Below are positions 33,450 through 61,357 of a DNA stretch of 64,000 nucleotides, piece after piece. Position 1 is the stretch's first letter; each line of letters begins with the position of its first letter. Position numbers and translations under genes: made by a program. This DNA is from Parapedobacter pyrenivorans. GTDB lineage: Bacteria; Bacteroidota; Bacteroidia; Sphingobacteriales; Sphingobacteriaceae. Where the stretch lies: contig NZ_BMER01000006.1 in assembly GCF_014636865.1 (NCBI RefSeq), forward strand, positions 310,001-374,000, read 5' to 3'. The notes under the pieces are model-generated. The model was not told where the DNA came from, did not search any database, and saw nothing but the letters and a program-made list of their open reading frames with translations.

Positions 33450-33463
33450 CTTGTATATACATG
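33450..33463. promoter_or_regulatory. Candidate operator CTTGTATATACATG (one mismatch to the shared palindrome)
   Basis: 13 of 14 bases match CTTGTATATACAAG, the palindrome found at 50284-50297 and 61344-61357. It stands 34 bp upstream of the FAH-family gene in a 235-bp gap that otherwise shows no gene. The GT-N4-AC core fits the general form of GntR-family operators. Confidence 0.6.
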
Positions 33464-33650
33464 ACAACTCGCACTTCAAAAATAGGCAAGCTCAACTATA
33501 TTCCCCACACAATGGCAATATAACATCCGATATTGATAAGATTGGATAACGAGCATGGACATTGGCATACTTGCTTAATAAATTTAGGTTTGCTAGAGTT
33601 GATACATTATTTGCTTGACTGTAAAAAACGCCATTCCATTTTTCGAAAAA

Positions 33651-34406
33651 CTAAAATGTTATCGTTAGCCCGCCATCAACTGTAACGACCGAACCCGTCA
33701 TATAAGACGCATCCGGTCCTGCTAAGAAGTAAGCCACGCCAGCCACCTCTTCAGGGCGCCCGGGGCGTTTCAATGGCAAGTGATCATATTTGATATAATT
33801 ATCACGAAACCATTCGGTCTCCAACTCGTTCTGCCCGTTATCATCCACAGACATCGGCGTGTCAATAAAACCCGGCGCAATCGTGTTGGCCAGGATATTT
33901 TCAGGTGCCAGCTCCAAGGCCAGTGACCGTGTAAACTGTGTAATGGCGGCTTTTGCCATTCCGTAAGCCGAACTTCCTTTCTCGACCCGATTGTTGTGGA
34001 TGGAAGTAATATGGATGATACGCCCACCATGTTTCATCAAGGGCACCAAACTTCGACAGCTTTTTACCGTGCCGTATAACATCACCTGTAGTGCATTATC
34101 CCAATCCACAAAATTGGACTCCAATAAGTCCATATGCGCCGACACGCCGATGCTGTTAACAAGTACATCAAATTTATTATACTTATCTGCAATATGTGTT
34201 ACAAAACTTTTCAGGTGTTTTTCGTTCCTAATATCCAATTGAATGGCCTCGTGCCCGCCCCCTATCAATCCACCATACGCTATATCTAATTTGGATTGAT
34301 CGGAAGAGGCTATAATGACCAACCAACCTTCTTTTGCAAACCGTTCGGCGATGGCCTTTCCGATACCGGATGAACCACCCAAAACCACTACTTTTTTTCT
34401 TGACAT
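33651..34406 (-). CDS. SDR-family oxidoreductase (candidate sugar or sugar-acid dehydrogenase)
   Basis: 251-aa classical short-chain dehydrogenase. The nucleotide motif is GGSSGIG (residues 10-16), the active site S135, Y148 and K152 (SSAYGMAKAA), with the later APGFIDTPM loop. A serine-rich loop after strand 2 (ASSDQSK) could allow NADP. It follows the other SDR by 8 bp and is the last gene before the 235-bp gap. Two SDRs with a dehydratase suggest that one oxidises the sugar and the other the 2-keto-3-deoxy acid; which does which is not clear. Confidence 0.88.
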   Translation of the reverse strand: MSRKKVVVLGGSSGIGKAIAERFAKEGWLVIIASSDQSKLDIAYGGLIGGGHEAIQLDIRNEKHLKSFVTHIADKYNKFDVLVNSIGVSAHMDLLESNFVDWDNALQVMLYGTVKSCRSLVPLMKHGGRIIHITSIHNNRVEKGSSAYGMAKAAITQFTRSLALELAPENILANTIAPGFIDTPMSVDDNGQNELETEWFRDNYIKYDHLPLKRPGRPEEVAGVAYFLAGPDASYMTGSVVTVDGGLTITF

Positions 34407-34414
34407 ATCGCTTA

Positions 34415-35173
34415 TTAATAGGTCGCTCGACCACCTGAAATATCATAAACAAACCCCGTGGAAAAACTGTTCTCTGGCGAAACAATGAAAGCGGCCATAG
34501 CAGCTACCTCCGCCACGGTACCTAGTCGCCCCATAGGAATTTTGCTCGTCATATAAGCTAGCTGTTCCGGGGCTGTATCTTCATTCATCGCTGTCTTTAT
34601 AACGGCGGGAGCCAACCCATTGACAGTTATTCCCTTTTCGGCGAATTCCTTGCCCAGCCCTTTTACCAAGCCGATCACACCTGCCTTCGTCGCCGAGTAG
34701 CCCGCCATGAACGGATTTCCTTCTTTGCCCGCTATGGAGGCGATGAGCAACATGCGACCGTACCCTTTTACTGCCATCGCCTGCAGACCGTACTTTGCGA
34801 TCAAAAATGCACCCCGTAAATTCACTTGATACACACGATCAAAATCTGCCAAGGTATAATCCAGTATGGACGTGCTGGTAGGCCCTACGATACCAGCCGA
34901 ATTAATGACTACGTCAATTTTTCCGAATTTTTCTTCAGCGGCTTTGTAGCCTGATTTCACCGCCTGTTCATCAGCTATGTCTACACAACGCCCCAGTACA
35001 GCAATACCCCGGCTTTCGAGTACTCGGACGGTCGCTGTCAGCTTCTTTTCATTGACATCAAACAAGACAATCCTAGCTCCCTCTGAAGCCAGCCGAAGCG
35101 CGACAGCTTTGCCCAACCCTTCCGCACCGCCGGATATTACCGCGACCTGATTTTCGAATCTTTTATTATCCAT
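34415..35173 (-). CDS. SDR-family oxidoreductase (candidate 2-keto-3-deoxy-sugar-acid dehydrogenase)
   Basis: 252-aa classical SDR with GGAEGLG (residues 15-21), catalytic S146, Y159 and K163 (GYSATKAG), and D39 after the second strand, which points to NAD. The motif RMLLIASIAGKEGNPFMAGYS resembles 2-keto-3-deoxy-L-rhamnonate or -fuconate dehydrogenases and gluconate 5-dehydrogenase-like enzymes. It is 1 bp after the dehydratase gene and so is a natural candidate for the next step. It ends GGRATY, the usual SDR tail. Confidence 0.88.
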   Translation of the reverse strand: MDNKRFENQVAVISGGAEGLGKAVALRLASEGARIVLFDVNEKKLTATVRVLESRGIAVLGRCVDIADEQAVKSGYKAAEEKFGKIDVVINSAGIVGPTSTSILDYTLADFDRVYQVNLRGAFLIAKYGLQAMAVKGYGRMLLIASIAGKEGNPFMAGYSATKAGVIGLVKGLGKEFAEKGITVNGLAPAVIKTAMNEDTAPEQLAYMTSKIPMGRLGTVAEVAAMAAFIVSPENSFSTGFVYDISGGRATY

Positions 35174-35174
35174 T

Positions 35175-36386
35175 TTATATAGCTGGTGTTTGGTATATCA
35201 ATGATCCGCCGATACGAATCTCAGCGTCTACCACATAGTCCTTCAGTGCTTCTAGTTGTACGTCAACTCCTAAACCCGGGGCATCAGGCACGACAATCTG
35301 TCCATTCTCATCCGGAAGGATTTTATTCGTGGTGATATCCAGCGCCAGTTGTTTGGGCTCCACGGGATACTCGCAGATCACGTCCTCCTTCACGCCGGCG
35401 TAAGGTTGGAGGGAAGCACTGAGTGCCAGATGGGATGTAAACGTGTGGTTCACATACGTAATCCCTTTGGCCGCCGCGTCGTCAGCCACCCGCTTTGCGG
35501 GGGTGATACCGCCGATGCGGCCCGTATCGATCTGGATAAAACCGAGTTCCGCATAATCCAACATGGCGGCCGCTTGCACATAGTTATTGCATCCTTCGCC
35601 TGCCGCCAGCCGTACCCGCGGTTCGCTCTTCGCCAGTTTGCTATAGGGCCCCAGTGCCATATTCGTAAAGGGTTCTTCCAGCCAGTAGGCATTCACATCT
35701 TTCAACGCGGCTAACCGCTCGCGTGCCACCGCCACATCTTCGCCCCACACGGTACCCAGGTCAATCATCAGGTACGCGTCCGCGCCCAGCCCCTCACGCG
35801 CCGCCCGGAAATGGGCAGCGTCGACTGCGGCGCTATCCCGCCCGATCGGCCCCCAGCCGAATTTGACTGCCCGATAACCCGACGCCCGCGATTGCACCGC
35901 CTTTTCGTAGGTCAGCTCCGGGGTATCCCCAAACAGCTGCGATGCATACGGGGTTTTCGGATACGCGCGTTTATACCCTAACAATCGATATACCGGTTCT
36001 CCCAATTTTTTTCCGAGCAGATCCCATAACGCAATGTCAATTCCCGACAACGTATGGTCGGCCTGCAACAAGTCAAAGCTGTGCGCGTGAACCTTCTGCC
36101 CAATTTTCCGGATGTCTTCCGGCTCGTTCAGGGGCATCCCTTCCACGCCATAGCTCACCGGCTTACAGGCGCTATGCGACATCGGACATACATAAGCGGC
36201 AATCGTTGGCAACGGCGCCGCTTCGCATTCGCCCCAGCCTTCCAGGCCCCCGGCCCGCACGCGTACTAATGTTGCATCCTGGCTACCATCTCCGATATCC
36301 AGTACCTCTGGCATCCGTAAGTAAAAAAAGTCTACTGATTCTATCTTCATATTGCTGTTTATTTTTGTGTTTCGATTGCTATCCAT
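35175..36386 (-). CDS. Enolase-superfamily (mandelate racemase/muconate lactonizing) sugar-acid dehydratase-like
   Basis: Expected to abstract the alpha-proton of an aldonate and eliminate water to give a 2-keto-3-deoxy acid. The barrel metal ligands lie in LMIDLGTVWG, YWLEEPF and AAGEGCNNY. The acid/base pair is likely the lysine in RAVKFGWGP and the histidine in NHTFTSHLALS, with the aspartate in IQIDTGRIGG. Two starts are possible: 36386, which overlaps the upstream gene by 8 bp, or 36350 (MKIESVDFFYLRMPE), which fits the family N-terminus better. Substrate is not identifiable. Confidence 0.88.
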   Translation of the reverse strand: MDSNRNTKINSNMKIESVDFFYLRMPEVLDIGDGSQDATLVRVRAGGLEGWGECEAAPLPTIAAYVCPMSHSACKPVSYGVEGMPLNEPEDIRKIGQKVHAHSFDLLQADHTLSGIDIALWDLLGKKLGEPVYRLLGYKRAYPKTPYASQLFGDTPELTYEKAVQSRASGYRAVKFGWGPIGRDSAAVDAAHFRAAREGLGADAYLMIDLGTVWGEDVAVARERLAALKDVNAYWLEEPFTNMALGPYSKLAKSEPRVRLAAGEGCNNYVQAAAMLDYAELGFIQIDTGRIGGITPAKRVADDAAAKGITYVNHTFTSHLALSASLQPYAGVKEDVICEYPVEPKQLALDITTNKILPDENGQIVVPDAPGLGVDVQLEALKDYVVDAEIRIGGSLIYQTPAI

Positions 36387-37296
36387 TCCCGCCGGCGTAA
36401 ATCGTCACCACGGTATCGATTGATTCCCCCGGCTCCAACACCGAACATTGCCCCCGGTCAGCCGCTTCGTTCACCTGCACAGGCATCGCAGATGCCGGTT
36501 CCAGTATCGCGGTATAATGATCCCGAAATTGACCGTAAGAAGCAAAGTACCACTGATAGGGGAAAACCCGCTGGTCATAAAGGTAAGAAAAGCGGCATTT
36601 CCCATTTTCCGACAGTAACGCCATCTCCCCAGCTGGCGAATCATATAGGTAGAAAAAATCCATGGTGCCATTTTTCTCCGGCACCACCGATGCGTCTACT
36701 CCCGCAATGACCGGCCATTTGAACTCGCCGGGATCGCCGAAGCGTGACGCCGCCAGGTTCACCACCTTCGCTTGGCGTGCCGGAGTAACGAGCCGATCGC
36801 CCGGGGCAATCCGTAGCGCGGCATGTAGCTTCCACAAGAACCGGCGGCGTTCGCCCGACTCGTTGATGATGTGGTACGTCAACTTAATTTTCGCGGTCCC
36901 TGTCTCCAAACACACCGTTTTTCGATAATGCAATCCACTTAGTGGCAGCACCCCATACACCGAGACCGCATTTTCAGATACCGCGTGCTCCAGACGGCAC
37001 GTCCAGAGTTCGCCGTGATCGGGATAGGCCGTGCCATCGATTTCCTCTGGGAGATCGTTAGGGAGTAACTCATCGATGCCCCCCAAAAAGTGGCTATCGT
37101 AATCATCCCCCGGGCGGTTTTCCTGCAGGTCGAGCTTTTCGTTATGCCACAAAAACTCCTTTTTATATTCCTTATTGAATACGCTGCTGATTTTTCCGCC
37201 CAATGCCGGGATGACATCCACGCGCAAGTGGTCGTTCTCCATGCAGATGATATCCAATCCTTGCTCCATACGCGGGGTGATCAGCGTCTTACGCAT
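36379..37296 (-). CDS. Aldose 1-epimerase-like (galactose mutarotase fold) protein
   Basis: 305 aa of the galactose-mutarotase-like fold: N-terminal NDHLRVDVIPALGGKISSV, then GGIDELLPN and a run of beta strands ending VLEPGESIDTVVTIYAG, the usual family end. It lacks a signal peptide, so a cytoplasmic job such as anomer interconversion before the dehydrogenase is plausible. It overlaps the genes on both sides by 8 bp, which shows tight operon packing. Catalytic His and Glu could not be assigned with confidence. Confidence 0.7.
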   Translation of the reverse strand: MRKTLITPRMEQGLDIICMENDHLRVDVIPALGGKISSVFNKEYKKEFLWHNEKLDLQENRPGDDYDSHFLGGIDELLPNDLPEEIDGTAYPDHGELWTCRLEHAVSENAVSVYGVLPLSGLHYRKTVCLETGTAKIKLTYHIINESGERRRFLWKLHAALRIAPGDRLVTPARQAKVVNLAASRFGDPGEFKWPVIAGVDASVVPEKNGTMDFFYLYDSPAGEMALLSENGKCRFSYLYDQRVFPYQWYFASYGQFRDHYTAILEPASAMPVQVNEAADRGQCSVLEPGESIDTVVTIYAGGNG

Positions 37297-38056
37297 GGTA
37301 TTCGTGGATTAATGTCCCTAATTCCGTAGCCAGCAAATTATCCTGCGGATAGCTGAACCCCAAGTGCTGCCGGTAGCCCTCCGCATACCGTTGGCCGATC
37401 AGCTTGCCGTTACGTTCCGAAAACGACTTCATCAACAAAACGAACTCATCCACTTTCGATATCGAGCGCAGCCAATCCCGTTGGCTATGATGGCAGCAAA
37501 GCATCGTCTCCTTCGTTGCCATTACGTCCGTAATGTCTACCATGGTGTCTCCAACGATCTCCCGGCCGACCCGATCTTTCCCATGCACCGCATCCGCATA
37601 GTAGAGATGTGGCACCTGTCGAAGAAGCGGCAAACCGGGCGTCACGATATTGGGAATGGTCGCCGCCATGCATGCCGTCTGTATAAGGTGGCTGGTGATT
37701 TCGTGATCTAGCATATAGTCGTCTGGACTAGCTGTAATTACCAGCGTTGGCTGTACCTCCCGGAACAACGCAATGACCTTCAGCAAAGTCGGTTTGTCGT
37801 ATAAAATAAAGATATCCTCCGATTCCAGGCAATGGTAATTCCCGCCAATGACCGCAGCAGCCGCGGCCGCTTCCTTGCGCCGGACCGCACTGATCGCTTC
37901 GGCATCGAGTTGGGTAGAACCCGCTTGCCCCGGCGTCATCGTAGCTATCGTTACCTGCCAACCTCTCGCGGCCAACAGTGCCAACAATCCCCCACTCAAA
38001 ATCTCCGCATCGTCGGGATGCGCCATCAGGCAGAGTACTGTATTTTTATTCGTCAT
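37289..38056 (-). CDS. PIG-L family deacetylase
   Basis: 255-aa zinc-dependent N-deacetylase of the GlcNAc-PI/MshB/BshB type. The metal motif AHPDDAE is at residues 12-18 (H13, D15, D16) and the third ligand is probably in the YMLDHEITSH segment. No signal peptide, so it acts in the cytoplasm after uptake. In a saccharide locus it may remove acetyl groups from an amino or acetylated sugar. BshB-type bacillithiol synthesis is an alternative, but no bshA/C stands nearby. Confidence 0.85.
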   Translation of the reverse strand: MTNKNTVLCLMAHPDDAEILSGGLLALLAARGWQVTIATMTPGQAGSTQLDAEAISAVRRKEAAAAAAVIGGNYHCLESEDIFILYDKPTLLKVIALFREVQPTLVITASPDDYMLDHEITSHLIQTACMAATIPNIVTPGLPLLRQVPHLYYADAVHGKDRVGREIVGDTMVDITDVMATKETMLCCHHSQRDWLRSISKVDEFVLLMKSFSERNGKLIGQRYAEGYRQHLGFSYPQDNLLATELGTLIHEYHA

Positions 38057-38071
38057 CTTTTAATCAACTAA

Positions 38072-39694
38072 TTACCACCAAAGGATGTAAAGCACCAGAT
38101 AAATAAGGGCTAAAATGCCCCACCAGAGCCATACCGATTGCCACCACAGCCGGCGCGGCTCATTTTCGGGAAGCCGCAACAGCTTGGGCGTCCATGTGAG
38201 GTTACTGATTTCGGCAACGGCACGCGGCCGAGTATACCAGCTTACACCCACCATAATGGCCACACAGAAAATCTGGGTAATCCCACCGATTACATAAAAA
38301 TTATCCAAGCCATAAGTGGCTATGGCCGTTTCAGGAAACAACGCGGGGATCAGCACCAACTGGATCAGCGCACCGAGGGGTATCCCTACGGTCAAAACCG
38401 TAAGGGATGCCGCCGGTGTAGCCCGTTTCCAAAACATGCCGGCCAAAAAACAGGTAGCCACAGGCACCGCCAAATACGTAGATAGCGACTGGAAATAAAT
38501 GAAAATCCCGCCCATGTTGCTAATCACCGGCGCATAGAGCACGCTGAATGCCATCAGCCCGAAGGTACACCACATCCCTACGCGCACCAACTGCTTATCG
38601 CTGGCTTGCCGGTTGATCCATTTCTTGTACACATCGTACGTAAACAAGGTGGAAATCGAATTCAGGAAAGCCGAAATGGTCGACATGATCGCTGCCAATA
38701 TACCCACCAATATGAGCCCTTGCATCCCCTTGGGAATAAGGTTGGCAATCAACATCGGGTATACGTTATCCACTTGATCCGGCGTAACCGCAAATTCCGG
38801 ATATCCCGTATTCGCAAGCGCTCTGGCGATCATCCCCGGAAATATTTCCAGGAACGGCCGTAACAGCACAAATGCCAATGCAAATACGACGGCCATGCGC
38901 ACATCCCATTCCGTTTTCGCCCCGAAGCCACGCTGCACCAGCGTTTGGTTAATGCAGGAGTAGAACAATTGGAGGTTAAATAGCGAAAACAGCACGGCGT
39001 GCCAAGGCATAATCGGTGTATCCATGGGCTGCATCAGGTGAAAACCACCCGCTGCATGGTCCACGATGTCTTGCCATCCATTTTCCAGCTTCACATACCC
39101 CAAGTAAAACAGGATGCCACCGGCCACGAACATCAACGCGAATTGAAATACGGAAGCGTTGATCATCGAAGACATGCCGCCGAATATGGTAAAGACACCC
39201 GACACCAGACCCAACACCAATATGCCCTGCCAGAGCGGTATATCATAGATTACCTCAAACAGTTTCGCGCCGCCATACAATACGACCGCCAAACTCAGAA
39301 ACACGTAGCTGAGCAGCAATAGTACCCCAAACACGTTCTGGCTGCGCTTATCGAACCGTTCACCGAGGTATTGCGGCATGGTCACGATGTTATTGCGGCG
39401 GTAAAGCGGAAAAAACACGAAAATCAACGCCGTATAGACAAAAATCGCAATCAAATACGAGTTCACCAGCGGCAAGCCCACGAGGTAGCCCATGCCGTTC
39501 ATTCCGATGAGCTGCTCCGAGTTGAGCCCCGTGGCCACGTAGGCCGCACCTATCGCCCACCACGGCAGCAACCCCTTCGAGGTAAAATATTGCGCTGCAT
39601 CGTCTTTCTTGCCGCGGCTAGACCAAACACCGATGACGATGATGATGGTAAAGTAACCGACAATGGTGAGGATGTCTAAGGTGCTTGCGGACAT
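38072..39694 (-). CDS. Sodium:solute symporter (SSS/SLC5 family)
   Basis: 540-aa inner-membrane transporter with about 14 helices, of the SGLT-like group. Recognisable parts are FTSKGLLPWWAIGAAYVATGLNSEQ near the N-terminus, GGMSSMINASVFQFALMFVAGG, and the TM8 sodium-site region AIMSTISAFLNSISTLFTYDVYKK. It should take the released sugar into the cell. It stands between the glycosidase (3-bp gap) and the deacetylase (15-bp gap). Confidence 0.92.
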   Translation of the reverse strand: MSASTLDILTIVGYFTIIIVIGVWSSRGKKDDAAQYFTSKGLLPWWAIGAAYVATGLNSEQLIGMNGMGYLVGLPLVNSYLIAIFVYTALIFVFFPLYRRNNIVTMPQYLGERFDKRSQNVFGVLLLLSYVFLSLAVVLYGGAKLFEVIYDIPLWQGILVLGLVSGVFTIFGGMSSMINASVFQFALMFVAGGILFYLGYVKLENGWQDIVDHAAGGFHLMQPMDTPIMPWHAVLFSLFNLQLFYSCINQTLVQRGFGAKTEWDVRMAVVFALAFVLLRPFLEIFPGMIARALANTGYPEFAVTPDQVDNVYPMLIANLIPKGMQGLILVGILAAIMSTISAFLNSISTLFTYDVYKKWINRQASDKQLVRVGMWCTFGLMAFSVLYAPVISNMGGIFIYFQSLSTYLAVPVATCFLAGMFWKRATPAASLTVLTVGIPLGALIQLVLIPALFPETAIATYGLDNFYVIGGITQIFCVAIMVGVSWYTRPRAVAEISNLTWTPKLLRLPENEPRRLWWQSVWLWWGILALIYLVLYILWW

Positions 39695-39697
39695 ATA

Positions 39698-42400
39698 TTA
39701 AAACGTTAACCTGACCGTTGCTTTACCTGTAAAATCACTCACAATGACGCTTTCTGTTTTTTCGTCGTACGTACCCCCCGTTACCTGTACCGGCGTTTTA
39801 TGTGCCGGATGCGGCAGCCTAACGCGTACGGTCTCGGGTTTCCGATCTCCCGTGCTTTCAACGGTCGCCTCGATGTACCCTTCTTCTACGTGTGATTTCG
39901 CTTCGACACGCAGCGGTCCGAAGTAGCTCCATACGCCATCCATTAAAAGCTCTTCGCCATCGGCCATCCAAGCCCGGGGTATGGTCTTAAATATGTCCAA
40001 CGCATTCCCGTCTTCCATATAGAGCATCCATCGGGTTTCCATCAGGAACCAACCCTCTTCATGGGTTTTATGAGGGGATAATTTGTATAGATGCTCCCAA
40101 AAGGTGTAGGTCTCCCGGTCGGCCAATGCCGCGAAGGTACTGTAATACGTTTCTAAGAACGGTTTGGTCATGCCCAGCTTCGCCTGCACCCAGTTGTGGC
40201 GGCTGTAGTAAGGCTGACTAAATGCGGCATTACCTTGGTAAAACAGTTCGCTATTGTAATCCAGCAGCATCTTGGCCGCTGGCTCATCCGCATCCAGCAC
40301 TTCGCAAAACACCAGGTAGAGAGGGCCAAGCATCGCATCCGACACAGAAACTGTACCGTGGGACCAAAACGCTTCCGGTTTCATATAGAGTGCACGAAGT
40401 CCGACGGCCTCCGTCCATGGTGGTGCCGTGGGGCACCATGTGCCATCGCCCAGCGGCACGACGGGCGATAGCGCCATCACATTAAAGAAAGACTCGCGGA
40501 TATCCGCCTTCCATGCTGCCGCTTCCTTGCCGATCCGATCAGCATCCGCGTGACCGATGGCCGCTAGCACCTCCGCGACGCGGCTCATACCGATATATGC
40601 ATATCCGTTAAGCATAAATTGGTGGAAATGATCTTCCGGATCGGCGACCTTCCCCGAGATCATCCCATAGCCCCGACCGGCCAGCTCGTCCTTCTTATTC
40701 TGGTTGCGCCACTCGATAAGGTAGTCCGCCGATTTCAACAGCTTCGGTGACGCTTGCCGTGCCCATTCCGTATCGTTGGTATACCTGAAATATTCACCCA
40801 TGGTCCACAGTGCAGCGCCTGTCTCAACCATGTAACCACCGAAATTCTGGATGAACCCATCTTCATGCTGCTTATCCAAAAAATAGGTCAGCGAGCGCTT
40901 GGCTACGTCCTGCCAGCCCATCGAGTTGTAAAATTGGATAATCGGCGAACTCTCCGTGCCGATGGGTGAATATACTCCGATGTTCGGTGCCAAGGTCTCG
41001 TTGGGGTCGTTACCGAATGTAATCAGGTCGAGATGCAGTAAACCGGCCTTGATCATTTCTTCGATCCGCTTTTCGGGCAGCTTGATGGTTGCCGCTTGCG
41101 CGAGTTTATCTTGCCAGAACTTTTTAGTTTCGGTATACCGTTGATCAAACGACTGGCCGGCCAGCGCCGTAGCCCGCTCCTTGTCGATGGGGCTATGCGG
41201 GACATAAAATTCAAACACCACCTTTTCGCCCGGTGCTACAAGGACAGCAATCTCCTCATTCTGTAGGGGCTGGCCGTTCAAACGGGAAATGCTGAATACC
41301 CGTCCGGATGCGTAGGTGGAAAAGCCCGTCTCCGCGTCGAACGTGTAGTCTTTCTTATGGTGCCAACCCGTGCCGGGCCGCGGCGCCTTAAACCAGGCGT
41401 ATCGTGGCACGGTGCCGGTATTGACCGCTTCCGACCGGAAATACAACACGGTTTCTTCCGCCGGGTTGAGCACTTCTTCCTGTCTCTCCGCGAGCAATTG
41501 CTTCTGGCCCTCCGTAAACATATGTCCGCCGCTATGGCTATCGGCTACCAAAAAGTCGGTACCGAATTGCGACCCAAGCGAGAGGGCCGATTTCTCAAAA
41601 CCGACAAATGTAGTCGAATGATATTGAATGTCGTCATCGGTCAATGTACTATGCAATAGGGGCAGCGATCCCTGTTCCAAGCGGCGCGAAATATTGTCTT
41701 GCACACCGACACCACGTCCCACGGTGTACAGGTAATTAACTGCCTGGTCTCCGGTTTCGGGCAACGTTACCGCCGAAACCGACCTTCGTGGCGAAATGAT
41801 ATTGGCCTCCCCTGGCGATAAATCCGACAGTGCTTCCGTGATCTGAAAAATCCGGAAATCACGGCTGGTACCCAACCATGTCGGTACGGACATATCCCGC
41901 GTCCGATTTTCCACGGAAGCGAAAGACGTCTCCTCCGGTGCGTCGGTAAGCTGTTGGATTTTGGTCTTTGATTTTCTAGATAAAACCGCTTGTTCGACGG
42001 CATCGTAAGACCGTGGATCATCGGCTTTCAATACAACCACACCGAACTCGGGTATGTAAATGGGGTACTCCGATGTGACATCGCGCAGGAAGAATGAGAA
42101 CGACCCGGTCAGTGCCCCCAGCGTGACCACCGTTGAATAGCTACCCGTTTTTGTATTGGCGCCGTCTAGCAATAAGCGTACCCGCCCGCGGCCCTCGGAA
42201 GAGAACCGGAAGGTGCTGTCACTTGTCCTTCCCTTTCCGACAGCGATTTCAAGGCCCGCAAGCCGACCATGCGTTACACCGATGCTCCCTGACTCAGGAA
42301 CCTGTTTCCACTCCAGAATAACTTCGTCAACTTTTTGGGCGAAAGCGCCCACACTAACCGCTAAGAAAAAAGTCAGAAAAATAAGCTTCATGTCAATCAT
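39698..42400 (-). CDS. Exported (alpha/alpha)6 six-hairpin glycosidase-like protein
   Basis: 900 aa with a signal peptide (MKLIFLTFFLAVSVGAFAQ). The N-terminal 400 residues look beta-rich; about residues 430-780 show the helical-hairpin pattern of the six-hairpin glycosidases (KRSLTYFLDKQHEDGFIQN, YFRYTNDTEWARQA, WKADIRESFFNV, CPTAPPWTEAVG), and a beta end follows. This resembles rhamnosidase- or glucoamylase-type folds, but I cannot place it in a GH family. Candidate acids are in KQHEDGF and PPWTEAVG. The start may be 42400, overlapping the susD stop, or 42391. Confidence 0.75.
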   Translation of the reverse strand: MIDMKLIFLTFFLAVSVGAFAQKVDEVILEWKQVPESGSIGVTHGRLAGLEIAVGKGRTSDSTFRFSSEGRGRVRLLLDGANTKTGSYSTVVTLGALTGSFSFFLRDVTSEYPIYIPEFGVVVLKADDPRSYDAVEQAVLSRKSKTKIQQLTDAPEETSFASVENRTRDMSVPTWLGTSRDFRIFQITEALSDLSPGEANIISPRRSVSAVTLPETGDQAVNYLYTVGRGVGVQDNISRRLEQGSLPLLHSTLTDDDIQYHSTTFVGFEKSALSLGSQFGTDFLVADSHSGGHMFTEGQKQLLAERQEEVLNPAEETVLYFRSEAVNTGTVPRYAWFKAPRPGTGWHHKKDYTFDAETGFSTYASGRVFSISRLNGQPLQNEEIAVLVAPGEKVVFEFYVPHSPIDKERATALAGQSFDQRYTETKKFWQDKLAQAATIKLPEKRIEEMIKAGLLHLDLITFGNDPNETLAPNIGVYSPIGTESSPIIQFYNSMGWQDVAKRSLTYFLDKQHEDGFIQNFGGYMVETGAALWTMGEYFRYTNDTEWARQASPKLLKSADYLIEWRNQNKKDELAGRGYGMISGKVADPEDHFHQFMLNGYAYIGMSRVAEVLAAIGHADADRIGKEAAAWKADIRESFFNVMALSPVVPLGDGTWCPTAPPWTEAVGLRALYMKPEAFWSHGTVSVSDAMLGPLYLVFCEVLDADEPAAKMLLDYNSELFYQGNAAFSQPYYSRHNWVQAKLGMTKPFLETYYSTFAALADRETYTFWEHLYKLSPHKTHEEGWFLMETRWMLYMEDGNALDIFKTIPRAWMADGEELLMDGVWSYFGPLRVEAKSHVEEGYIEATVESTGDRKPETVRVRLPHPAHKTPVQVTGGTYDEKTESVIVSDFTGKATVRLTF

Positions 42401-44042: not shown

Positions 44043-44054
44043 AAAAAAATAAAG

Positions 44055-50265: not shown

Positions 50266-50296
50266 CAAAGATAACACATCAAACTTGTATATACAA
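50266..50296 (-). promoter_or_regulatory. Bacteroidota-type promoter TTG-N20-TATCTTTG overlapping the shared palindrome
   Basis: On the minus strand, TTG (50296-50294) is part of the palindrome, followed after 20 bp by TATCTTTG (50273-50266). Spacing fits TTG-N17-23-TAnnTTTG, and the Gfo/Idh start is 55 bp further on. A bound regulator would cover the -33 element. Confidence 0.6.
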
Positions 50297-50297
50297 G
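50284..50297. promoter_or_regulatory. Perfect 14-bp palindrome CTTGTATATACAAG (candidate operator)
   Basis: Identical to 61344-61357 and one mismatch from 33450-33463. It lies 11 bp after the DUF1080 stop and 72 bp before the exported Gfo/Idh gene, in the 97-bp gap that splits an otherwise tightly packed run. The GT-N4-AC core is of GntR-operator form. Confidence 0.7.
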
Positions 50298-50980: not shown

Positions 50981-51019
50981 ATATATAATTTAATAAAAAT
51001 CAAAACCCCAACAATTTGG

Positions 51020-51793: not shown

Positions 51794-51810
51794 GAGTTAT
51801 TACGGTTTAA

Positions 51811-53526: not shown

Positions 53527-53539
53527 ATTCGTTTGTTAA

Positions 53540-54442: not shown

Positions 54443-55265
54443 TGCGCCTATCCCAATCGGTCAATAAATCGACCGCAGCTTTCACATCATCGAGATTGTT
54501 ATCCCAATCATGCTCACATTCCACGAAGATAAATCCTTCGAATCCTTGACGCCTTAACTCCGCAAACACTGCTTTATAGTCAATGATTCCGCTTCCGACT
54601 TTTACATCAGCCGCATCCGGATTCCCAAAAGCATCAAGGTCTTTCGCATGGATACTTGCCAAGCGTCCTTCAAGCTGCTTTAAGCATGCTACCGGATCAA
54701 GTCCGCTCCGCACCCAATGCCCGAGATCGCCACAGACCGCGAAATTCGGGTGGCCTTCCAAAGCGGCGAGAACCGAATCGGGGTGCCAGAATCGGCTCTG
54801 TTCCTTGGCATGTTGGTGGATAGCTAGCTTGAGACCATAATCCCCGGCCAAACGATCCAGCTCATCCCAAAGGTGCGGTTCCGGCTCACCCACCAGAAAT
54901 TTCAACCCCAGTTGTTTTCCCTTCTCGAACAGCACCTGCCATTCGGCACTGGTCTTACCGTCGGCATACATGGAAACCATACGCAGACCATTTTCCTGCA
55001 CGAGCGACCGGACGTCAGCAAGTTCGGATTCACTCAACGCGGAAAGCGGTCGCTCACCGAATTTTCCACCCAGTTGCTGGAAAGAGAAGCCCTCCACGTA
55101 ATCTACCCCGCTTTGTTTCGCTTTTTGCAATCCCTCTTCCAGCGAGAAGCGATTAAACGAGTATAGGGCAACCCCTACTTTGGAGCCTTCGTTTTGCTCC
55201 CCTGGGGTACAGCCTGCACACCAGGCGGCTACCGCCAACATCATTACTATTTTTATCTTCATCAT
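54432..55265 (-). CDS. TIM-barrel sugar isomerase/hydratase-like lipoprotein
   Basis: 277 aa of the xylose-isomerase-like (AP endonuclease 2) barrel. It carries a lipoprotein signal (AVAAWCAGC), so it works in the periplasm or at a membrane, which is unlike the cytoplasmic inositol enzymes IolE and IolI. Metal-site segments are FLVGEPEPHLW, LAIHQHAKEQSRFW, GDLGHWVRSG, SIHAKDL and FVECEHDWD. Relatives in Bacteroides act as hydratases in 3-keto-glycoside breakdown after DUF1080 enzymes. It follows the GMC small subunit by 22 bp. Confidence 0.85.
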   Translation of the reverse strand: MMKIKIVMMLAVAAWCAGCTPGEQNEGSKVGVALYSFNRFSLEEGLQKAKQSGVDYVEGFSFQQLGGKFGERPLSALSESELADVRSLVQENGLRMVSMYADGKTSAEWQVLFEKGKQLGLKFLVGEPEPHLWDELDRLAGDYGLKLAIHQHAKEQSRFWHPDSVLAALEGHPNFAVCGDLGHWVRSGLDPVACLKQLEGRLASIHAKDLDAFGNPDAADVKVGSGIIDYKAVFAELRRQGFEGFIFVECEHDWDNNLDDVKAAVDLLTDWDRRNDV

Positions 55266-55287
55266 CTAACGTTTACGACAAGCATCA

Positions 55288-55917
55288 TTACCCCCATGCA
55301 CTTTCGAATCCATGTTGCTGAAGGATGTCTTCTGGCACACCATCCCAATTTCCCGGACGGTTGCCCATATATCCGATATCTTTTACGCCAATTTCACTGG
55401 TAAAGAACCCAGAGGCCGTCAAATTACGGACTAAATTGAAAAAAGCAATACCGGGCATCATATCAGCATCGGCTTTTGCCGGATAGGCGATCGCATCCAC
55501 CAACTCCAATTGTTGTTTTTCTTCGCACTTTACAAACGCATTGCCGTAACGCCGATGGCTTTGTATATCCAGCCATTTTAACCCACCACGCATCGGCACC
55601 TGGTAGGAAGGGATATCCTTTACCATAAACTCAATAAATGCCGGCACCCCCGCATCCGTGGCACTACCTGAGACGCCATCGGCGGGGATGATGATATCGG
55701 AAAGCACGGCAATCGTGGTCAGTTCGTGGTCCGTAAAAAACGTTTCGGCCGCTAACCGTTGATTGCGTTCATGCTCGGTACCGGTAATACCGGGCAGCTT
55801 CTCCACATCGGCCTTACTTCCGTTTGCTGTCTTCGCTCCAGGGCTACAAGCGTCCAGTAGCAACGCCCCACCGGTTGCTGCAAGCCCAAGAACCTTGATC
55901 GAATCTCTCCTATTCAT
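55288..55917 (-). CDS. Gluconate 2-dehydrogenase subunit 3-like protein (GMC small subunit, Tat)
   Basis: 209 aa. The N-terminus MNRRDSIKVLGLAATGG is a Tat signal joined to a lipobox (LLLDAC, Cys24), so it is exported folded and lipid-anchored. The subunit-3 domain includes FFTDHELTTIAVLSDIIIPAD and the typical MRGGLKWLDIQSHRRYGNAF. The GMC flavoprotein encoded 17 bp upstream has no signal of its own and would be co-exported with this subunit, as in periplasmic sugar dehydrogenases. Confidence 0.9.
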   Translation of the reverse strand: MNRRDSIKVLGLAATGGALLLDACSPGAKTANGSKADVEKLPGITGTEHERNQRLAAETFFTDHELTTIAVLSDIIIPADGVSGSATDAGVPAFIEFMVKDIPSYQVPMRGGLKWLDIQSHRRYGNAFVKCEEKQQLELVDAIAYPAKADADMMPGIAFFNLVRNLTASGFFTSEIGVKDIGYMGNRPGNWDGVPEDILQQHGFESAWG

Positions 55918-55934
55918 AAGCTAGAATTTTGTTG

Positions 55935-57677
55935 TTAAATAGTTAGTTTGTTCCGCTCTTCAATAATATATTCCGCCGTGCGCATCGACAGTGCAAGAAT
56001 GGTCCACGTCAGATTTTTATCACCTTGTTGCACAAAAGGACCGGCATCTACAACGAACAGATTTTGGCAGTCGTGAGCCTGCCCCCATCTATTTAGTACC
56101 GATTTTTTCGGATCATCTCCCATACGCGTTGTGCCGCCTTCATGGATGATCTTACCGGGCGCTTCCAATCCGTAAAGCGTTTCAGGCCCCGGCATCGGCG
56201 AAATGGCAATGGCACCCATCTCGTGCAGGATTTCTTGAAAAGTTTCTTGCATATGCTTAGCTTGCGCAATCTCCTCACTGCCCCATTTATAATGGAATCG
56301 CAGCACCGGAATACCGTATTTATCTACCCTTGTAGGGTCTATTTCGCAGTAATTATCATAACGGGCAAGCGCCGTACCACGGCCTGCCATGCCCACGCCG
56401 GTACCGTAGAACCGTCGATAGTCATCCTTCAAGGCAGCACCGTATCCCCCTTGTTCGCGTTGGCCGCCGTCTTTCGTCGGCACCATATGGTTTACATGTG
56501 GAACACCATCCAGAAAGCCAAAGGAAGGCATATGCAAACCACCGCCGTATTCGATATGGTACCCTCTAGGGAAATTGAGCTTTTTATTGTCTTCCCACCA
56601 AGGCGAGTAAATGTGCACACTTCCAACACCATCTTCGTTATAGCGTTTCCTATCCAACAATTGTGGGAGCAGTCCGCCTGCTCCTGCGCCTGTAGAATCG
56701 TGCAGGTACCGGCCTACAAGCCCACTGCTGTTCGCAAGTCCCCCCGGGTGTGCCGAAGATTTAGAGTTGAGCAGCAACCGTGCACTTTCACAGGCGCTTG
56801 CGCCGAGGATCACCAGTTTCCCTTTCACGGTATGTTCCTCAAGGTTCTGTGTATTGACGTAAGAAACACCAGTGGCCAACCCTTCGTTGTCGGTAAGCAC
56901 TTCCCGTACCATCGCATGGTCAATGACCGTCAGGTTACCGGTCTTCATTGCCGGTATAACGAGGCATGACGACGATGAAAAATCACCATACACCTTGCAT
57001 GACCTGCCGCACTGACCACAATAAAAGCAAGTACCGCGGCCTTCGACTCCCGGGAGGGCTTCCGTCAGTACCGAACCGCGGCCGGCGATAACAGGAACTC
57101 CTGCTTTCTGTGCTCCCCGTTTGATATAAAGTTCATTCAGTCTTGGCTTGGGCGGCTTTAAAAATATACCGTCGGGCTCGTTCTTTATCCCTTCCACTGT
57201 GCCATATATCCCGATCATGCGGTCTATGCGGTCGTAAAAGGGTTTGACCTCGTCGTAGCTAATCGGCCAAGCATCCGTCACACCGTCAACAGGCTTGAAA
57301 TCATCTGGCCCCATACGTAAAGAAATGCGACCCCAATGGTTCGTGCGCCCGCCAAGCATACGAGCCCGAAACCAATCGAACTGTGTGCCGCCAACCCGCG
57401 TGTAAGGTTCCCCGTCAAGCTCCCAACCACCGTAAGCAGCATCGAAGTCGCCGAATGGCCGGGTTGTACTTGCACCGCGGCGCGGAGATTCCCACGGCCA
57501 GCGCATTTGAAGAGCATCTTTAGCGGGGTCAAAAAAAGGACCAGCCTCGAGCATCAATACGTTCAATCCAGCATGTGCCAATACATAACCAGCCATCCCG
57601 CCGCCCGCACCGGAACCGACAACAATAGCGTCATACAAAACGGGACTTTCCTTAATTTGAAATGAACTCATACGCAT
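55935..57677 (-). CDS. GMC-family FAD sugar dehydrogenase, catalytic subunit
   Basis: 580 aa. FAD motif GSGAGGG at residues 21-27, LEAGPFF at the end of the second strand, ARMLGGRTNHWGRIS in the GMC signature region, and HEGGTTRMGDDP with DAGPFVQQGDKNLTWTILALS at the C-terminus. A Cys cluster (C217, C220, C223, C227 in CFYCGQCGRSC) may hold an Fe-S centre as in FAD-glucose dehydrogenases. With subunit 3 and the cytochrome c it forms a likely periplasmic dehydrogenase that oxidises a sugar or glycoside, perhaps at C3. Confidence 0.9.
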   Translation of the reverse strand: MRMSSFQIKESPVLYDAIVVGSGAGGGMAGYVLAHAGLNVLMLEAGPFFDPAKDALQMRWPWESPRRGASTTRPFGDFDAAYGGWELDGEPYTRVGGTQFDWFRARMLGGRTNHWGRISLRMGPDDFKPVDGVTDAWPISYDEVKPFYDRIDRMIGIYGTVEGIKNEPDGIFLKPPKPRLNELYIKRGAQKAGVPVIAGRGSVLTEALPGVEGRGTCFYCGQCGRSCKVYGDFSSSSCLVIPAMKTGNLTVIDHAMVREVLTDNEGLATGVSYVNTQNLEEHTVKGKLVILGASACESARLLLNSKSSAHPGGLANSSGLVGRYLHDSTGAGAGGLLPQLLDRKRYNEDGVGSVHIYSPWWEDNKKLNFPRGYHIEYGGGLHMPSFGFLDGVPHVNHMVPTKDGGQREQGGYGAALKDDYRRFYGTGVGMAGRGTALARYDNYCEIDPTRVDKYGIPVLRFHYKWGSEEIAQAKHMQETFQEILHEMGAIAISPMPGPETLYGLEAPGKIIHEGGTTRMGDDPKKSVLNRWGQAHDCQNLFVVDAGPFVQQGDKNLTWTILALSMRTAEYIIEERNKLTI

Positions 57678-57682
57678 ATTCT

Positions 57683-58738
57683 TTATTTCTGAATTTCGAC
57701 TTTATTTCCCGCTCGGTACCCATACACTTCGGAAAGCGACAAACAATCCGGATAAGGGATTATCCCGTCTGAGCACGTCACATGAGACAAACTGGCTGCT
57801 GCAGCACAAACCCCAAGATCAAGGCACACTTCCATCTTCCATCCTTCGTGTATACCTAGCAATACACCGGCTGCCAAGGCATCGCCCGCTCCATTTGCCC
57901 CAACCACCTGCTCCCGGGGGAGTTGCAGGCTGGGCTGGTATAACTGCCTACCATCCCGGTGCGCTGCCCATACACCATCCGGGTGATGGATGATGATCCA
58001 TTCGTTAACCCCCATCCGGAAGATGATCTCAAAAACCTCCACACATCGGCTGCCCATTTCCTCCTGGCCTGCCACGTTCATCACATCGATCCCCGACAGC
58101 CGGCTTGCTTCATATTCATTGAGGAACAGGTAATCCACGTACGGCAACGCGCAGGGAATGATCGTGGCGAAACGATCCGAATCTTCGCTCACCAAATCAA
58201 TGGACGTCAAAAATCCTTCCTTCTTGGCTTGCTCCAGCAAATGCGAAGCCTTAGTCCTGCCGTTGTCCTGGATTTCATCCAACCGGTCCAGCAGGAGCAG
58301 GTAACCCAAGTGAAAAATCCTGGCATTCGAAATACGGAAATCGAAATGACCGATATCCAAAAGCGAATTGGCACCCCGGTGATGGAAAAACGTACGTTTC
58401 CCGGTTTGCTTTACCGAGGTCACAATGGTATAGGACGTCGGCGTATCAGGGGTCATTTGCAGCTGCCGCACGTCGATGCCCGCCTCACGGCAATGGTCGA
58501 CGATCCGTACCCCATTGAAGTCATTGCCTACCAAGCCAACGGCCTCCAACCGAAAGGGAGCCCCCAGTTTGGTTAAATCCATCAAAATATTATAAGCCGA
58601 CCCCCCATTGCTCGTGTACTCGTGCAGAATATTTACAAGAGACTGTTCTGCCGGGAACTTGTCGATCAGCTTCACCTGATCCAATATCCAGTTGCCGGCT
58701 ATCAGCAACCCCGACCGATTCATTTGATTTATTGACAT
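57683..58738 (-). CDS. PfkB-family carbohydrate kinase
   Basis: 351 aa ribokinase-fold kinase. N-terminal GGSAYNILMDLTKLG substrate loop, middle sheet with NEYEASRLSGI, and the catalytic/anion-hole motif GANGAGDALAAGVLLG (Asp as base). The substrate is not known; the partners suggest a ketose phosphorylated before cleavage by the class-I aldolase encoded 1.7 kb upstream. It ends 5 bp before the GMC gene. Confidence 0.9.
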   Translation of the reverse strand: MSINQMNRSGLLIAGNWILDQVKLIDKFPAEQSLVNILHEYTSNGGSAYNILMDLTKLGAPFRLEAVGLVGNDFNGVRIVDHCREAGIDVRQLQMTPDTPTSYTIVTSVKQTGKRTFFHHRGANSLLDIGHFDFRISNARIFHLGYLLLLDRLDEIQDNGRTKASHLLEQAKKEGFLTSIDLVSEDSDRFATIIPCALPYVDYLFLNEYEASRLSGIDVMNVAGQEEMGSRCVEVFEIIFRMGVNEWIIIHHPDGVWAAHRDGRQLYQPSLQLPREQVVGANGAGDALAAGVLLGIHEGWKMEVCLDLGVCAAAASLSHVTCSDGIIPYPDCLSLSEVYGYRAGNKVEIQK

Positions 58739-58772: not shown

Positions 58773-59339
58773 CTATTCACTAAGCAACTTCACCAGCGGA
58801 GGTTCATCTTCTATGATTTCGGGGAATCGCCCGATTTCAGTATCCCAAAAGAAATTATCGTTTTCGTCATCGTTGGCAGTGGAAACCTCACCGATAATGC
58901 ACTCGGCAGAAACCGGGTAAAATGCATGCCAAAGCAGCGGTGTGATCGTGATACGTTCTCCGGCTTTTAGCAAAATAGGCTCACCATTGCTAACCGCCCG
59001 GTATTCACCATTGATTTTGACGTTTATAACTTGCCCCCCAACGGTATCCGGGCTTTCTCCCCAAAGCGTAACGGCGAGTTCACCCACCCTGCAGATGATA
59101 TCTTCCTTTTTCTGTTTATGGTAATGTGCCGGTGTGGTTTGATCCCGCCAGGCATACATCAGTTTTTCACAATATTCGGATTCAGCGGCAAGGTTTACCA
59201 ATACCAGCCCTTCTTTGCGGAAAATACCCAATCCAAAGTCCGTCACATCCCATGCCGGATTGGGTGGCAGCACCCAACCGTTACGTTCAAAAAAATTGAT
59301 CGCAGATCGAACTGCATAATTTATTTCTGACCTTTTCAT
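58773..59339 (-). CDS. D-lyxose ketol-isomerase-like cupin
   Basis: 188-aa single cupin of the former DUF1498 family; D-lyxose isomerases interconvert lyxose/xylulose and mannose/fructose. Metal ligands are in TTPAHYHKQKKEDI (His-X-His, Glu) and LLWHAFYP (His). It is shorter than the 227-aa E. coli homologue. Its ATG overlaps the Gfo/Idh stop by 4 bp. It would supply a ketose to the kinase encoded next. Confidence 0.88.
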   Translation of the reverse strand: MKRSEINYAVRSAINFFERNGWVLPPNPAWDVTDFGLGIFRKEGLVLVNLAAESEYCEKLMYAWRDQTTPAHYHKQKKEDIICRVGELAVTLWGESPDTVGGQVINVKINGEYRAVSNGEPILLKAGERITITPLLWHAFYPVSAECIIGEVSTANDDENDNFFWDTEIGRFPEIIEDEPPLVKLLSE

Positions 59340-60481
59340 ATCACAAGCGTTGAAGGAAATGAGACATCTACGAAGGAACCGGATTCCTGGGAAAGCAGTG
59401 CTGCTTTGAAGATCCGATGGCTATCTACCGCTTCTTCCGGTGTAGCGCAACCGAATTTTCCATTCAGCAGGCCTTCGCGCTCGGCAACGTATGCCGCAAT
59501 CATCTGCATGAAGCAGTCGGGAAAACCCGCTTCGAAAATACCGCCGGTAATGGTTTCAAAGGGCATTTGAAATCCGAGGTCCGTGCGCTTCCACCATTGC
59601 TCTGCACCATTGGTAAACTGCCAAAAAGCCTTGGTGTCTTTGGTACTGTACCGTACACCGCCTTCCGTCCCGTAAATCTCGATATACCATGTATTGGTTT
59701 CACCCGGCGCCAAGCGTTTCATTTCCAATTGCATGGGCACCTGCTCACCATTGATATCAACCTGGGTGCTCAATGTCGCATTGTTCCAAGTATCACATAC
59801 CGCCATTCCTCCCTTACCGTCAGGTCGTTCGGTAATGATTTTCTGCAATTGAGCGAATACCTTCGACGGTTTCCAACCCAACCGCAGTGGTACGTGAAGG
59901 GCATGCATACCCAGGTCTCCCATCACACCGATTTCGCCGCAGTATTGCGATTGGCGCTTCCAATTGATGGGCTTCTGTGCGTTCATATCGCTCGCATGAA
60001 GGAAACCCGACCGGATTTCAAATATCCGACCCAGTCTTCCCGACTGCACTTCGGCGATCACCCGCTGCGGCCCGGGCAGAAAAGGCATTTCCGAGCTGCA
60101 ACGTACAAATCGCCCTAATTTCGTGGCTTCGGCGGCAATCGTCTCCGCCGCTTCCTGATCGATGCCGAAGGGCTTTTCCCCCAGCAAATCCTTGCCCGCC
60201 CGCAGGATATCCAGATAGATCTCGCGGTGCAGGTTATGTGGCACAGCGATGTATACCACATCCACCTCGTCGCTGTTGATCAGCTCCCTGTAGTCCGTAG
60301 TCAGCAACGAAACGCTGTCAATCTGTTTATACCAGGATAATATTCCTTCGTTCAGGTCGCATACCGCAGTAAGTCGCACCCGAACCGGAAAATCCTTCAG
60401 CGCAAACCACCGCCCGAACGCGCTGGCTGCCTCACGTCCCATCAGACCGCCGCCGATGATGCCTATATTGACCGTTTTCAT
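59336..60481 (-). CDS. Gfo/Idh/MocA-family oxidoreductase (cytoplasmic)
   Basis: 381 aa with no export signal. The Rossmann fold starts VNIGIIGGGLMGREAASAFG; the hallmark EKPFGIDQEAAE and GEIGVMGDLGMHALHVPLRLG follow. NAD(P)-linked oxidation or reduction of a keto-sugar is expected, for example returning a 3-keto sugar to the ordinary sugar. It lies between the aldolase (3-bp gap) and the lyxose-isomerase-like gene. Confidence 0.9.
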   Translation of the reverse strand: MKTVNIGIIGGGLMGREAASAFGRWFALKDFPVRVRLTAVCDLNEGILSWYKQIDSVSLLTTDYRELINSDEVDVVYIAVPHNLHREIYLDILRAGKDLLGEKPFGIDQEAAETIAAEATKLGRFVRCSSEMPFLPGPQRVIAEVQSGRLGRIFEIRSGFLHASDMNAQKPINWKRQSQYCGEIGVMGDLGMHALHVPLRLGWKPSKVFAQLQKIITERPDGKGGMAVCDTWNNATLSTQVDINGEQVPMQLEMKRLAPGETNTWYIEIYGTEGGVRYSTKDTKAFWQFTNGAEQWWKRTDLGFQMPFETITGGIFEAGFPDCFMQMIAAYVAEREGLLNGKFGCATPEEAVDSHRIFKAALLSQESGSFVDVSFPSTLVI

Positions 60482-60484
60482 TTG

Positions 60485-61318
60485 TTAGCTGTTTAACAAT
60501 TGGATTACTTCCTCAGGCTTGGCACCCTCATGGACAATAGCCATCAACGCTCGGGTCATCCCGCTTGGATTGGCATGCTGGATGACGTTTCGGCCATATA
60601 CAATGCCTTTCACGCCTTGTTGCATGAGGCCATATGTCCGCTGCAGAATCTCTTCATCGGTCGCTTTCCCGCCACCGCGTACCAAAACCGGGATATCGCC
60701 CGCAATTTCCACCACGCGATGGTAATCGTTCACATCATCGGTGGGGTCGGCCTTAATGATGTCCGCACCCAACTCTACACCCTGCCTCACTAATGGAATG
60801 ATTTTCTCGGGATCACCGTTCACCATGTATCCCCCCGCCTCGCTGTTCGGACGGAATACCAAAGGCTCCACCATCAGCGGAATACCGTAACGCTCGGTTT
60901 CGGGCTTTATTCTCAGGATATTCTGGATGCATTGGTCGGTCACCTCCGGTTCATCCGGAATACTGAATAGGTTCACCACCACGCAAACGGCGTCCAGTCG
61001 TATTGCCTGCTCCACGGGATTTTCGATCATCCGGCTAAATAACGCGCGGGGCAATTGCTTTCCATAGACATTGGCCACATCCGTGCGTAAAACCAGCGAA
61101 GGCTTTTCGCGTCCTGGAATAGACTGTAGGTAATGGGCCTGACCAACTGTAAGTTGGATGGCATCCGGAGCGGCATCTACCAATACATTCACCGCATTCT
61201 TGATACTTTCAATCCCTTGCAAAAATGGATATTCATTAAAAAATCCATGATCAATAGCAACATCGAAACAGTTACCAGATCTGCTATTGAAAAGTCTATT
61301 TAATCGATAAGTTTTCAT
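60485..61318 (-). CDS. Class-I aldolase of the DhnA/LsrF (DeoC/LacD) family
   Basis: 277-aa TIM barrel. The Schiff-base lysine is K189 in GADIIKADPTDD; the phosphate-binding loop is VRGGGKATDEEIL with KGIVYGRNVIQH at the end. Family members cleave ketose 1-phosphates or related phosphates. The pairing with PfkB and a lyxose/mannose-type isomerase suggests splitting a ketose phosphate to dihydroxyacetone phosphate and an aldehyde. It is the first gene of the long operon, 26 bp after the shared palindrome. Confidence 0.9.
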   Translation of the reverse strand: MKTYRLNRLFNSRSGNCFDVAIDHGFFNEYPFLQGIESIKNAVNVLVDAAPDAIQLTVGQAHYLQSIPGREKPSLVLRTDVANVYGKQLPRALFSRMIENPVEQAIRLDAVCVVVNLFSIPDEPEVTDQCIQNILRIKPETERYGIPLMVEPLVFRPNSEAGGYMVNGDPEKIIPLVRQGVELGADIIKADPTDDVNDYHRVVEIAGDIPVLVRGGGKATDEEILQRTYGLMQQGVKGIVYGRNVIQHANPSGMTRALMAIVHEGAKPEEVIQLLNS

Positions 61319-61322
61319 GAAG

Positions 61323-61356
61323 CAAATATAAACAAATAAACAACTTGTATATACAA
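61323..61356 (-). promoter_or_regulatory. Bacteroidota-type promoter TTG-N23-TATATTTG overlapping the shared palindrome
   Basis: On the minus strand, TTG (61356-61354) within the palindrome is followed after 23 bp by TATATTTG (61330-61323), at the long limit of the consensus spacing. The aldolase ATG follows after 4 bp, so this -7 box may be close to the start for a leader; the assignment is tentative. Confidence 0.4.
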
Positions 61357-61357
61357 G
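61344..61357. promoter_or_regulatory. Perfect 14-bp palindrome CTTGTATATACAAG (candidate operator)
   Basis: The symmetry extends to 16 bp (61343-61358). It lies in the 48-bp gap between the stop of the DUF2231/cytochrome gene and the aldolase ATG. Identical to 50284-50297 and one mismatch from 33450-33463. Confidence 0.75.

Follow-up and report, generated by a model that had tools for sequence, protein, structure and literature searches.

What joins the three catabolic operons that follow a shared 14-bp palindrome in Parapedobacter pyrenivorans, and which protein reads it? The question was raised by a 64-kb stretch of this genome (the window, i.e. all 64,000 nucleotides of C6:310001-374000 of genome G000; positions without a contig prefix refer to it), where the initial annotation had linked an FAH-family hydrolase operon, an exported Gfo/Idh oxidoreductase and an aldolase operon through CTTGTATATACAAG. 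Our results make it probable (about 0.86) that a local GntR repressor of the HutC type uses this palindrome as its operator; a phosphosugar would free the repressor, and these operons would be under its joint control.

The three copies were located as claimed: two perfect ones at 50284-50297 and 61344-61357 and one matching at 13 of 14 positions at 33450-33463, all intergenic and directly 5' of minus-strand genes. A window scan allowing up to three mismatches returned these three and no fourth. For 64 kb, a first-order window model predicted 0.0001 perfect copies and 0.006 with at most one mismatch, where 2 and 3 were observed; at genome size (5.93 Mb) the same model gave 0.012 and 0.60 for 4 and 9 observed, and the reversed pattern at up to one mismatch was absent from the genome. 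The four perfect genome copies were confined to one 48-kb stretch beginning inside the window, and seven of the nine (the four perfect and three of the five one-mismatch copies) lay within 64.5 kb (C6:343450-C6:407968), a stretch picked after the fact. Scatter away from operon starts, for which a genome scan had been proposed, was not the pattern found and the regulon survives: all seven clustered copies precede a gene head, the one at C6:407955 only if its MFS gene is taken to start at the ATG at L017:14916 instead of the automatically called TTG. The regulon exceeds three operons: it takes in six heads within the cluster, the gene for the regulator and, probably, one distant gene.

The candidate regulator was found outside the window. 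A six-frame genome search with PF00392 gave 16 matches, 14 of them above cut-off and none in C6:310001-374000, in agreement with the reported absence of a GntR gene there. The nearby GntR-type gene that had been predicted is present at C6:404668-405384, 30.7 kb beyond the window end, and is the top-scoring match of the genome. Its product (238 amino acids) scored 62.5 bits with PF00392 (cut-off 27) and 69.2 bits with PF07702, UTRA (cut-off 23.8); judged by these domains, an N-terminal helix-turn-helix (HTH) and a C-terminal UTRA, it is a GntR-family protein of the HutC subfamily. The AlphaFold2 model of the P. defluvii orthologue (mean predicted local distance difference test, pLDDT, 85.5) fits this HTH and UTRA-like layout. 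The promoter region of the gene (hereafter gntR) holds three palindrome copies between it and a divergent GH92 gene, at C6:404394 (two mismatches), C6:404458 (perfect) and C6:404595 (one mismatch). The last two are separated by 137, 137, 134 and 124 bp in G000, G057, G045 and G003, respectively; spaced near whole helical turns, they could possibly allow DNA looping. As to narrower assignments, the protein scored 101.8 bits with the TreR equivalog (TIGR02404, cut-off 211.95) and 106.7 bits with the histidine-utilisation HutC equivalog (TIGR02018, cut-off 220), and both were rejected, as was a trehalose regulon on the same TreR score.

Most copies appeared to be placed on promoters. The Bacteroidota promoter consensus is TTTG/TANNTTTG, with a -33 element that is weak in Flavobacterium (PMC6847099), and the -7 box TAnnTTTG spans -12 to -5 (PMC9723704). 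Copies with at most one mismatch were gathered from 37 sequences, which left 68 unique ones, of which related sequences are not independent, after one of 69 was removed for its identical flank; the two copies on contig C1 of G000 are outside this set. A perfect TAnnTTTG occurred 15-22 bp from the palindrome centre, on one side, in 43 of the 68 copies, and equally wide control windows, 20 of them taken from these flanks, gave 0-9 boxes per 68. Offsets were 15-17 in 35 of the 43 and 20-22 in the other eight. At offset 17 the palindrome spans -36 to -23, and the -33 TTG comes from the CTTG within it. Such is the case at 50284 with the -7 box TATCTTTG; the overlap with the -33 TTG, announced for two sites, is exact there (TTG at -35 to -33), and at 61344, where the box TATATTTG stands at offset 20, the TTG is about 3 bp off. 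Even so, the palindrome at 61344 (-39 to -26) still covers the -33 region. The copy at C6:407955 has a box one base off consensus, likewise at offset 17.

As the palindrome covers the -33 region, the geometry is that of a repressor. The same regulator could act on the same sites chiefly as an activator, or in both ways, and the eight promoter-proximal operators lying slightly upstream (offset 20-22) would suit such a role. We regard this as unlikely, given that the other 35 sit atop the -33 box, where a bound dimer should exclude polymerase, and that published work describes NagR and DasR, both HutC factors, as repressors (PMC4333415).

Palindrome and regulator were found together across genomes. 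Within a family sample of 121 genomes, GntR (called at E <= 1e-20) was present in eight and the perfect palindrome in nine. All eight GntR genomes carried copies on the contig of GntR, and also in its own promoter region, and a perfect copy was seen in one of the 113 others (Fisher p 1e-11, a value that ignores kinship). The same pattern was displayed by the genus (nine genomes), where each of the five members with GntR carries 2-4 perfect copies as well as the core aldolase (92-100% identity). The other four lack both a perfect copy and, at E <= 1e-40, the aldolase, and show no more than two one-mismatch copies, which are scattered. In a class sample of 345 genomes (at most eight candidates scored in each) GntR had two occurrences at E <= 1e-20, and the reversed palindrome, as a control, matched once in six of the 345; 16 genomes of one further family gave no match to the GntR query. 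A scan of named genomes with the protein pattern PSEN[ED]LCK returned 67 loci, of which 34 with Bacteroidota titles and at least 41% identity over most of the protein were counted as orthologues. The 33 others were distant or partial, and none of the seven inspected had an upstream copy at up to two mismatches. Orthologues from Parapedobacter defluvii, composti, soli and indicus were 76-89% identical, and others came from Sphingobacterium, Pedobacter, Mucilaginibacter, Chitinophagales, Bacteroidales and further Bacteroidota titles. An upstream copy with at most two mismatches preceded 33 of the 34 (best copies with 0, 1, 2 and 3 mismatches in 22, 8, 3 and 1 of them); at this threshold shuffled windows gave 0/340, the reversed pattern 0/34 and windows 5' of other genes 6/219, the latter six perhaps being other regulon heads. 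Among six Bacteroidales loci (45-47% identical), the best copy was CTTGTATTTACAAG or CTTGTAAATACAAG in four, CTTGTAATTACAAG in one and perfect in one.

This distribution also bears on whether another regulator, either a second GntR-domain protein or the AraC-type one at 47407-48306, reads the palindromes. The genome has 14 GntR-domain places above the Pfam cut-off, one of which (C6:429553) lies about 25 kb past the candidate, and HutC-type palindromes resemble one another. Yet the copies lie in the promoter region of this very GntR in all eight family genomes and near-copies precede 33 of 34 orthologues, and the sole other UTRA gene of the genome has no copy with fewer than four mismatches in its 3.4-kb locus. 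A different reader is therefore very unlikely.

Several observations weigh against the operator interpretation. In 25 of the 68 copies of the promoter set no perfect -7 box stood within the expected distances, and none was found in the tested orientation for the gntR-proximal copy at C6:404595, so that autoregulation is argued from position. Copies without GntR were recorded in G043, the lone family exception, whose single copy lies inside an open reading frame, and in four of the 343 class genomes lacking the regulator (one copy each). A distant homologue in G355 (E 5e-50), the second of the two class genomes with a match, had no copy in its 3.7-kb locus, which contradicts universal pairing. 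Within the window, the number of copies at up to three mismatches was not above chance (shuffle mean 2.23, with at least three copies in 33 of 100 shuffles); it is their near-perfection, rather than this number, that exceeds chance. Finally, the FAH operator has no -7 box downstream, and in the single relative checked, G093, the best copy in the 400 bp upstream of the FAH homologue (88% identical) had five mismatches.

The FAH operon is the weakest member. With one mismatch in its operator (CTTGTATATACATG, 34 bp 5' of the gene), no downstream -7 box and no operator in G093, its membership is less certain, and it is retained as a possible, not a certain, part of the regulon. Its -7 box, TATTTTTG, 28 bp 5' of the operator centre, would place the FAH operator at about +10 to +23, where it possibly acts as a roadblock. 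A palindrome that is merely an AT-rich chance or repeat element, without regulatory meaning, would agree with the window count at up to three mismatches, and is made untenable by its co-occurrence with one gene across genomes; the excess of perfect genome copies (4 for 0.012 expected) and flanks displaying only A/T richness beyond the 14 bp also speak against it.

The fit between protein and DNA was compatible with a HutC operator. The GT-N4-AC core had been taken for the GntR-operator form, which is borne out since CTTGTATATACAAG contains GTATATAC, conforming to the HutC consensus NyGTMTAKACNy (PMC4494728). Published positions were mapped to residues by counting from the table in that survey. 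Position 38, an Arg that contacts G in FadR and AraR (PMC4494728), corresponds to R46, and the Gly of position 59 to G67, both present in 35 of 35 aligned proteins. Position 28 is an Asn (N36), and the operator has T at the corresponding place; the survey gives Asn at this position a weak, non-significant preference for A/T (PMC4494728). Part of the conservation of N36 among the larger set is imposed by the pattern used for the search, PSEN[ED]LCK, and the residue was also invariant in the eight proteins found by whole-protein search. NagR, in contrast, reads G at -5/-4 via Arg38/Arg48 (PMC4333415); here Asn36 replaces Arg38 and the operator base is T.

The best relatives of this GntR with a solved structure are NagR (YvoA) from B. 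subtilis and Streptomyces DasR, two GntR/HutC repressors whose effectors are sugar phosphates (PMC4333415). NagR binds the phosphate of its effector through Thr90, Arg133, Arg135 and a helix start at Ser165 (PMC4333415), which align to T88, R131, R133 and S164. R131, R133 and S164 were found in 35 of 35 proteins and T88 in 32, with Ser in the remaining three; at each of the two arginine positions, two of four distant outgroup proteins lack the residue. In the P. defluvii model, R131 and R133 share one strand (126-135) and S164 directly precedes helix 165-173, and residues 88-91, around T88, have a pLDDT below 50. Because the phosphate-binding residues of NagR are conserved, the inducer is most likely a phosphorylated sugar, which the PfkB kinase of the core operon could make.

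Taken as a mechanism, a GntR dimer is predicted to bind CTTGTATATACAAG and, by covering the -33 region at the housekeeping promoters of most targets, would block RNA polymerase. This would silence the core operon (aldolase, Gfo/Idh, isomerase and PfkB) and gntR itself, together with the accessory oxidoreductase, GH92-SusCD, PSCyt-DUF1501 and MFS-SGNH operons. A phosphorylated pathway sugar, perhaps the PfkB product, would then enter the UTRA pocket and release the protein. Legible in the sequences are the sites, their placement on predicted promoters and in front of gntR, the joint inheritance of regulator, operator and core genes, and the conserved putative phosphate-binding set; binding itself, repression rather than activation and the phosphosugar inducer are what we infer from them.

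The core operon lies on the minus strand, as do the other target genes of the window. It encodes a DeoC/LacD-family (LsrF/MJ0400-like) class I aldolase (60485-61318), a Gfo/Idh dehydrogenase (59336-60481), a cupin resembling D-lyxose/D-mannose isomerases (58773-59339) and a PfkB sugar kinase (57683-58738), termed core enzymes 1 to 4. The aldolase, a close relative of MJ0400 and LsrF, retains a lysine at the aligned position (GADIIK/GADIVK), which we take to be the Schiff-base residue. Similarly, the cupin retains the HxH...KxED stretch of a solved D-lyxose isomerase, presumably its metal ligands. The same-strand run continues over 50309-57677 with, by Pfam, a GMC oxidoreductase, a gluconate-2-dehydrogenase subunit 3, a TIM-barrel protein (AP_endonuc_2), an SMP-30 lactonase, an IlvD/EDD dehydratase, an SDR and a 3-keto-disaccharide hydrolase; judging from spacing, it would form a single operon with the core genes. 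Judged by its -7 box, transcription of the aldolase gene is predicted to begin at the A of its ATG (61318), and the mRNA may therefore be leaderless; this layout recurred in G057, G045 and G091, not in G003. A second aldolase paralogue, L177 (G000:C2:200193-201005), is 52% identical, and the only listed copy on its contig, C2:390049, has two mismatches.

Operator 50284-50297 precedes the exported Gfo/Idh oxidoreductase (48835-50277, Pfam), whose true start is probably the ATG at 50223 or 50211, as the GTG at 50277 precedes the predicted transcription start; a cytochrome c (48321-48782, Pfam) probably belongs to the same operon. The FAH-family hydrolase (32564-33415), nearest to the NCBIfam model for 2,4-didehydro-3-deoxy-L-rhamnonate hydrolase and under its cut-off, is followed by a pyruvate-carboxylase-like protein (29105-32548) and an FAD-linked oxidase/Fe-S dehydrogenase (26113-29058), both assigned by Pfam. 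Between these two operons, a run at 33651-47162 (SDR, SDR, enolase-superfamily, mutarotase-like, PIG-L, SSF, SusD and SusC) and its divergent AraC-type regulator (47407-48306) contained no palindrome at up to three mismatches, and the run looks separately controlled.

Past the window, a one-mismatch copy at C6:378510 heads a PSCyt/DUF1553-DUF1501-NHL operon, and the perfect copy at C6:407955, about 2.6 kb past the gntR end, is followed after 39 bp by what is likely the start of an MFS transporter-SGNH operon. The distant copy C1:1211378 precedes a 3-keto-disaccharide hydrolase gene with a -7 box at offset 17 and is probably a regulon member; orthologues of this gene belong to the cluster in G057 and G093, and the one of G003 is on a different contig, which suggests that the gene was relocated together with its operator. 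An identical variant occurs at C85:101500 of G087, a genome without GntR, where by sequence look only it lies inside coding DNA. The copy C1:891156 was regarded as chance, since neither flank shows a -7 box within the 80 bp inspected. A composite of HutC core and -7 box matched seven places in the genome, five known palindromes and two others, and its reversed control three.

In 10 of 29 mapped named-genome loci, all titled Pedobacter or Mucilaginibacter, the core genes are directly divergent from gntR with the operator between them, and four more have one gene in between. Accessory genes vary, comprising GH92, GH38 and GxGYxYP proteins, 3-keto-disaccharide hydrolases, ceramidase-like proteins and 2-oxoacid dehydrogenase operons. 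Operator copies of two relatives (L104:1132-1145 and L108:7851-7864) precede 2-oxoacid dehydrogenase (E1/E2) operons; the regulon therefore varies from group to group, and its pathway may lead to a 2-oxoacid or a diketone. Ceramidase_alk-like genes (L057:14787-16247 and L052:5520-7076, the latter scoring under the Pfam cut-off) stand directly after operator copies or beside gntR (G064, G093).

By published description, the predicted ManR (BT2103) of Bacteroides thetaiotaomicron is the closest precedent in the phylum. Compared by description only, it is likewise a predicted GntR-family regulator, assigned to mannose and mannosides, and its predicted regulon, like this one, links alpha-mannosidases, a SusC/D system and sugar catabolism; its enzymes yield fructose 6-phosphate, whereas the core here consists of aldolase, Gfo/Idh, isomerase and PfkB (PMC3878776). 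The operator sequence as such is of a known HutC type, because the TreR box TTGTATATACAA of B. licheniformis equals the inner 12 bp of the palindrome (PMC11356801). Unlike TreR of Bacillus, no trehalose genes were noticed among the annotated targets and, unlike NagR and DasR, the core operon is without amino-sugar genes. Among the matches listed from one open-access literature collection, none described this GntR or palindrome. The predicted control is of an ordinary HutC type, and what is new is the regulon and its uncharacterised core pathway.

Two known pathways were considered for the core and set aside. Sulfo-EMP2, a sulfoquinovose route through isomerase, kinase and aldolase, uses other families (SqvD, FucI-like, PF02952; SqiK, PF00365; SqiA, PF01116; PMC9594981), and the classical inositol (Iol) pathway was not favoured, resemblance to IolC, IolE and IolG being below cut-off and no IolD having been noticed in the annotated set. 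We tentatively propose, at somewhat less than even odds, that behind the regulon stands a catabolic pathway of Bacteroidota, so far undescribed, which travels as a unit with its regulator: a sugar released by glycosidases would be oxidised by Gfo/Idh, isomerised by the cupin, phosphorylated by PfkB and cleaved by the LsrF-like class I aldolase, a phosphorylated intermediate being the GntR inducer. Alpha-mannoside-type glycans are our best guess for the substrate source, with about even odds.

HutC regulons have rarely been described in Bacteroidota (a single Bacteroidetes HutC factor in the survey PMC4494728), and an operator placed on the -33/-7 promoter would be a clean case of a repressor fitted to promoters of this phylum. 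A palindrome noticed in raw sequence could be tied to one regulator, with support from several Bacteroidota groups. One gene and one operator would thereby give a handle on a regulon of mostly uncharacterised enzymes, i.e. 3-keto-sugar hydrolases, Planctomycete-type cytochromes, GxGYxYP putative hydrolases and an unexplained four-enzyme core.

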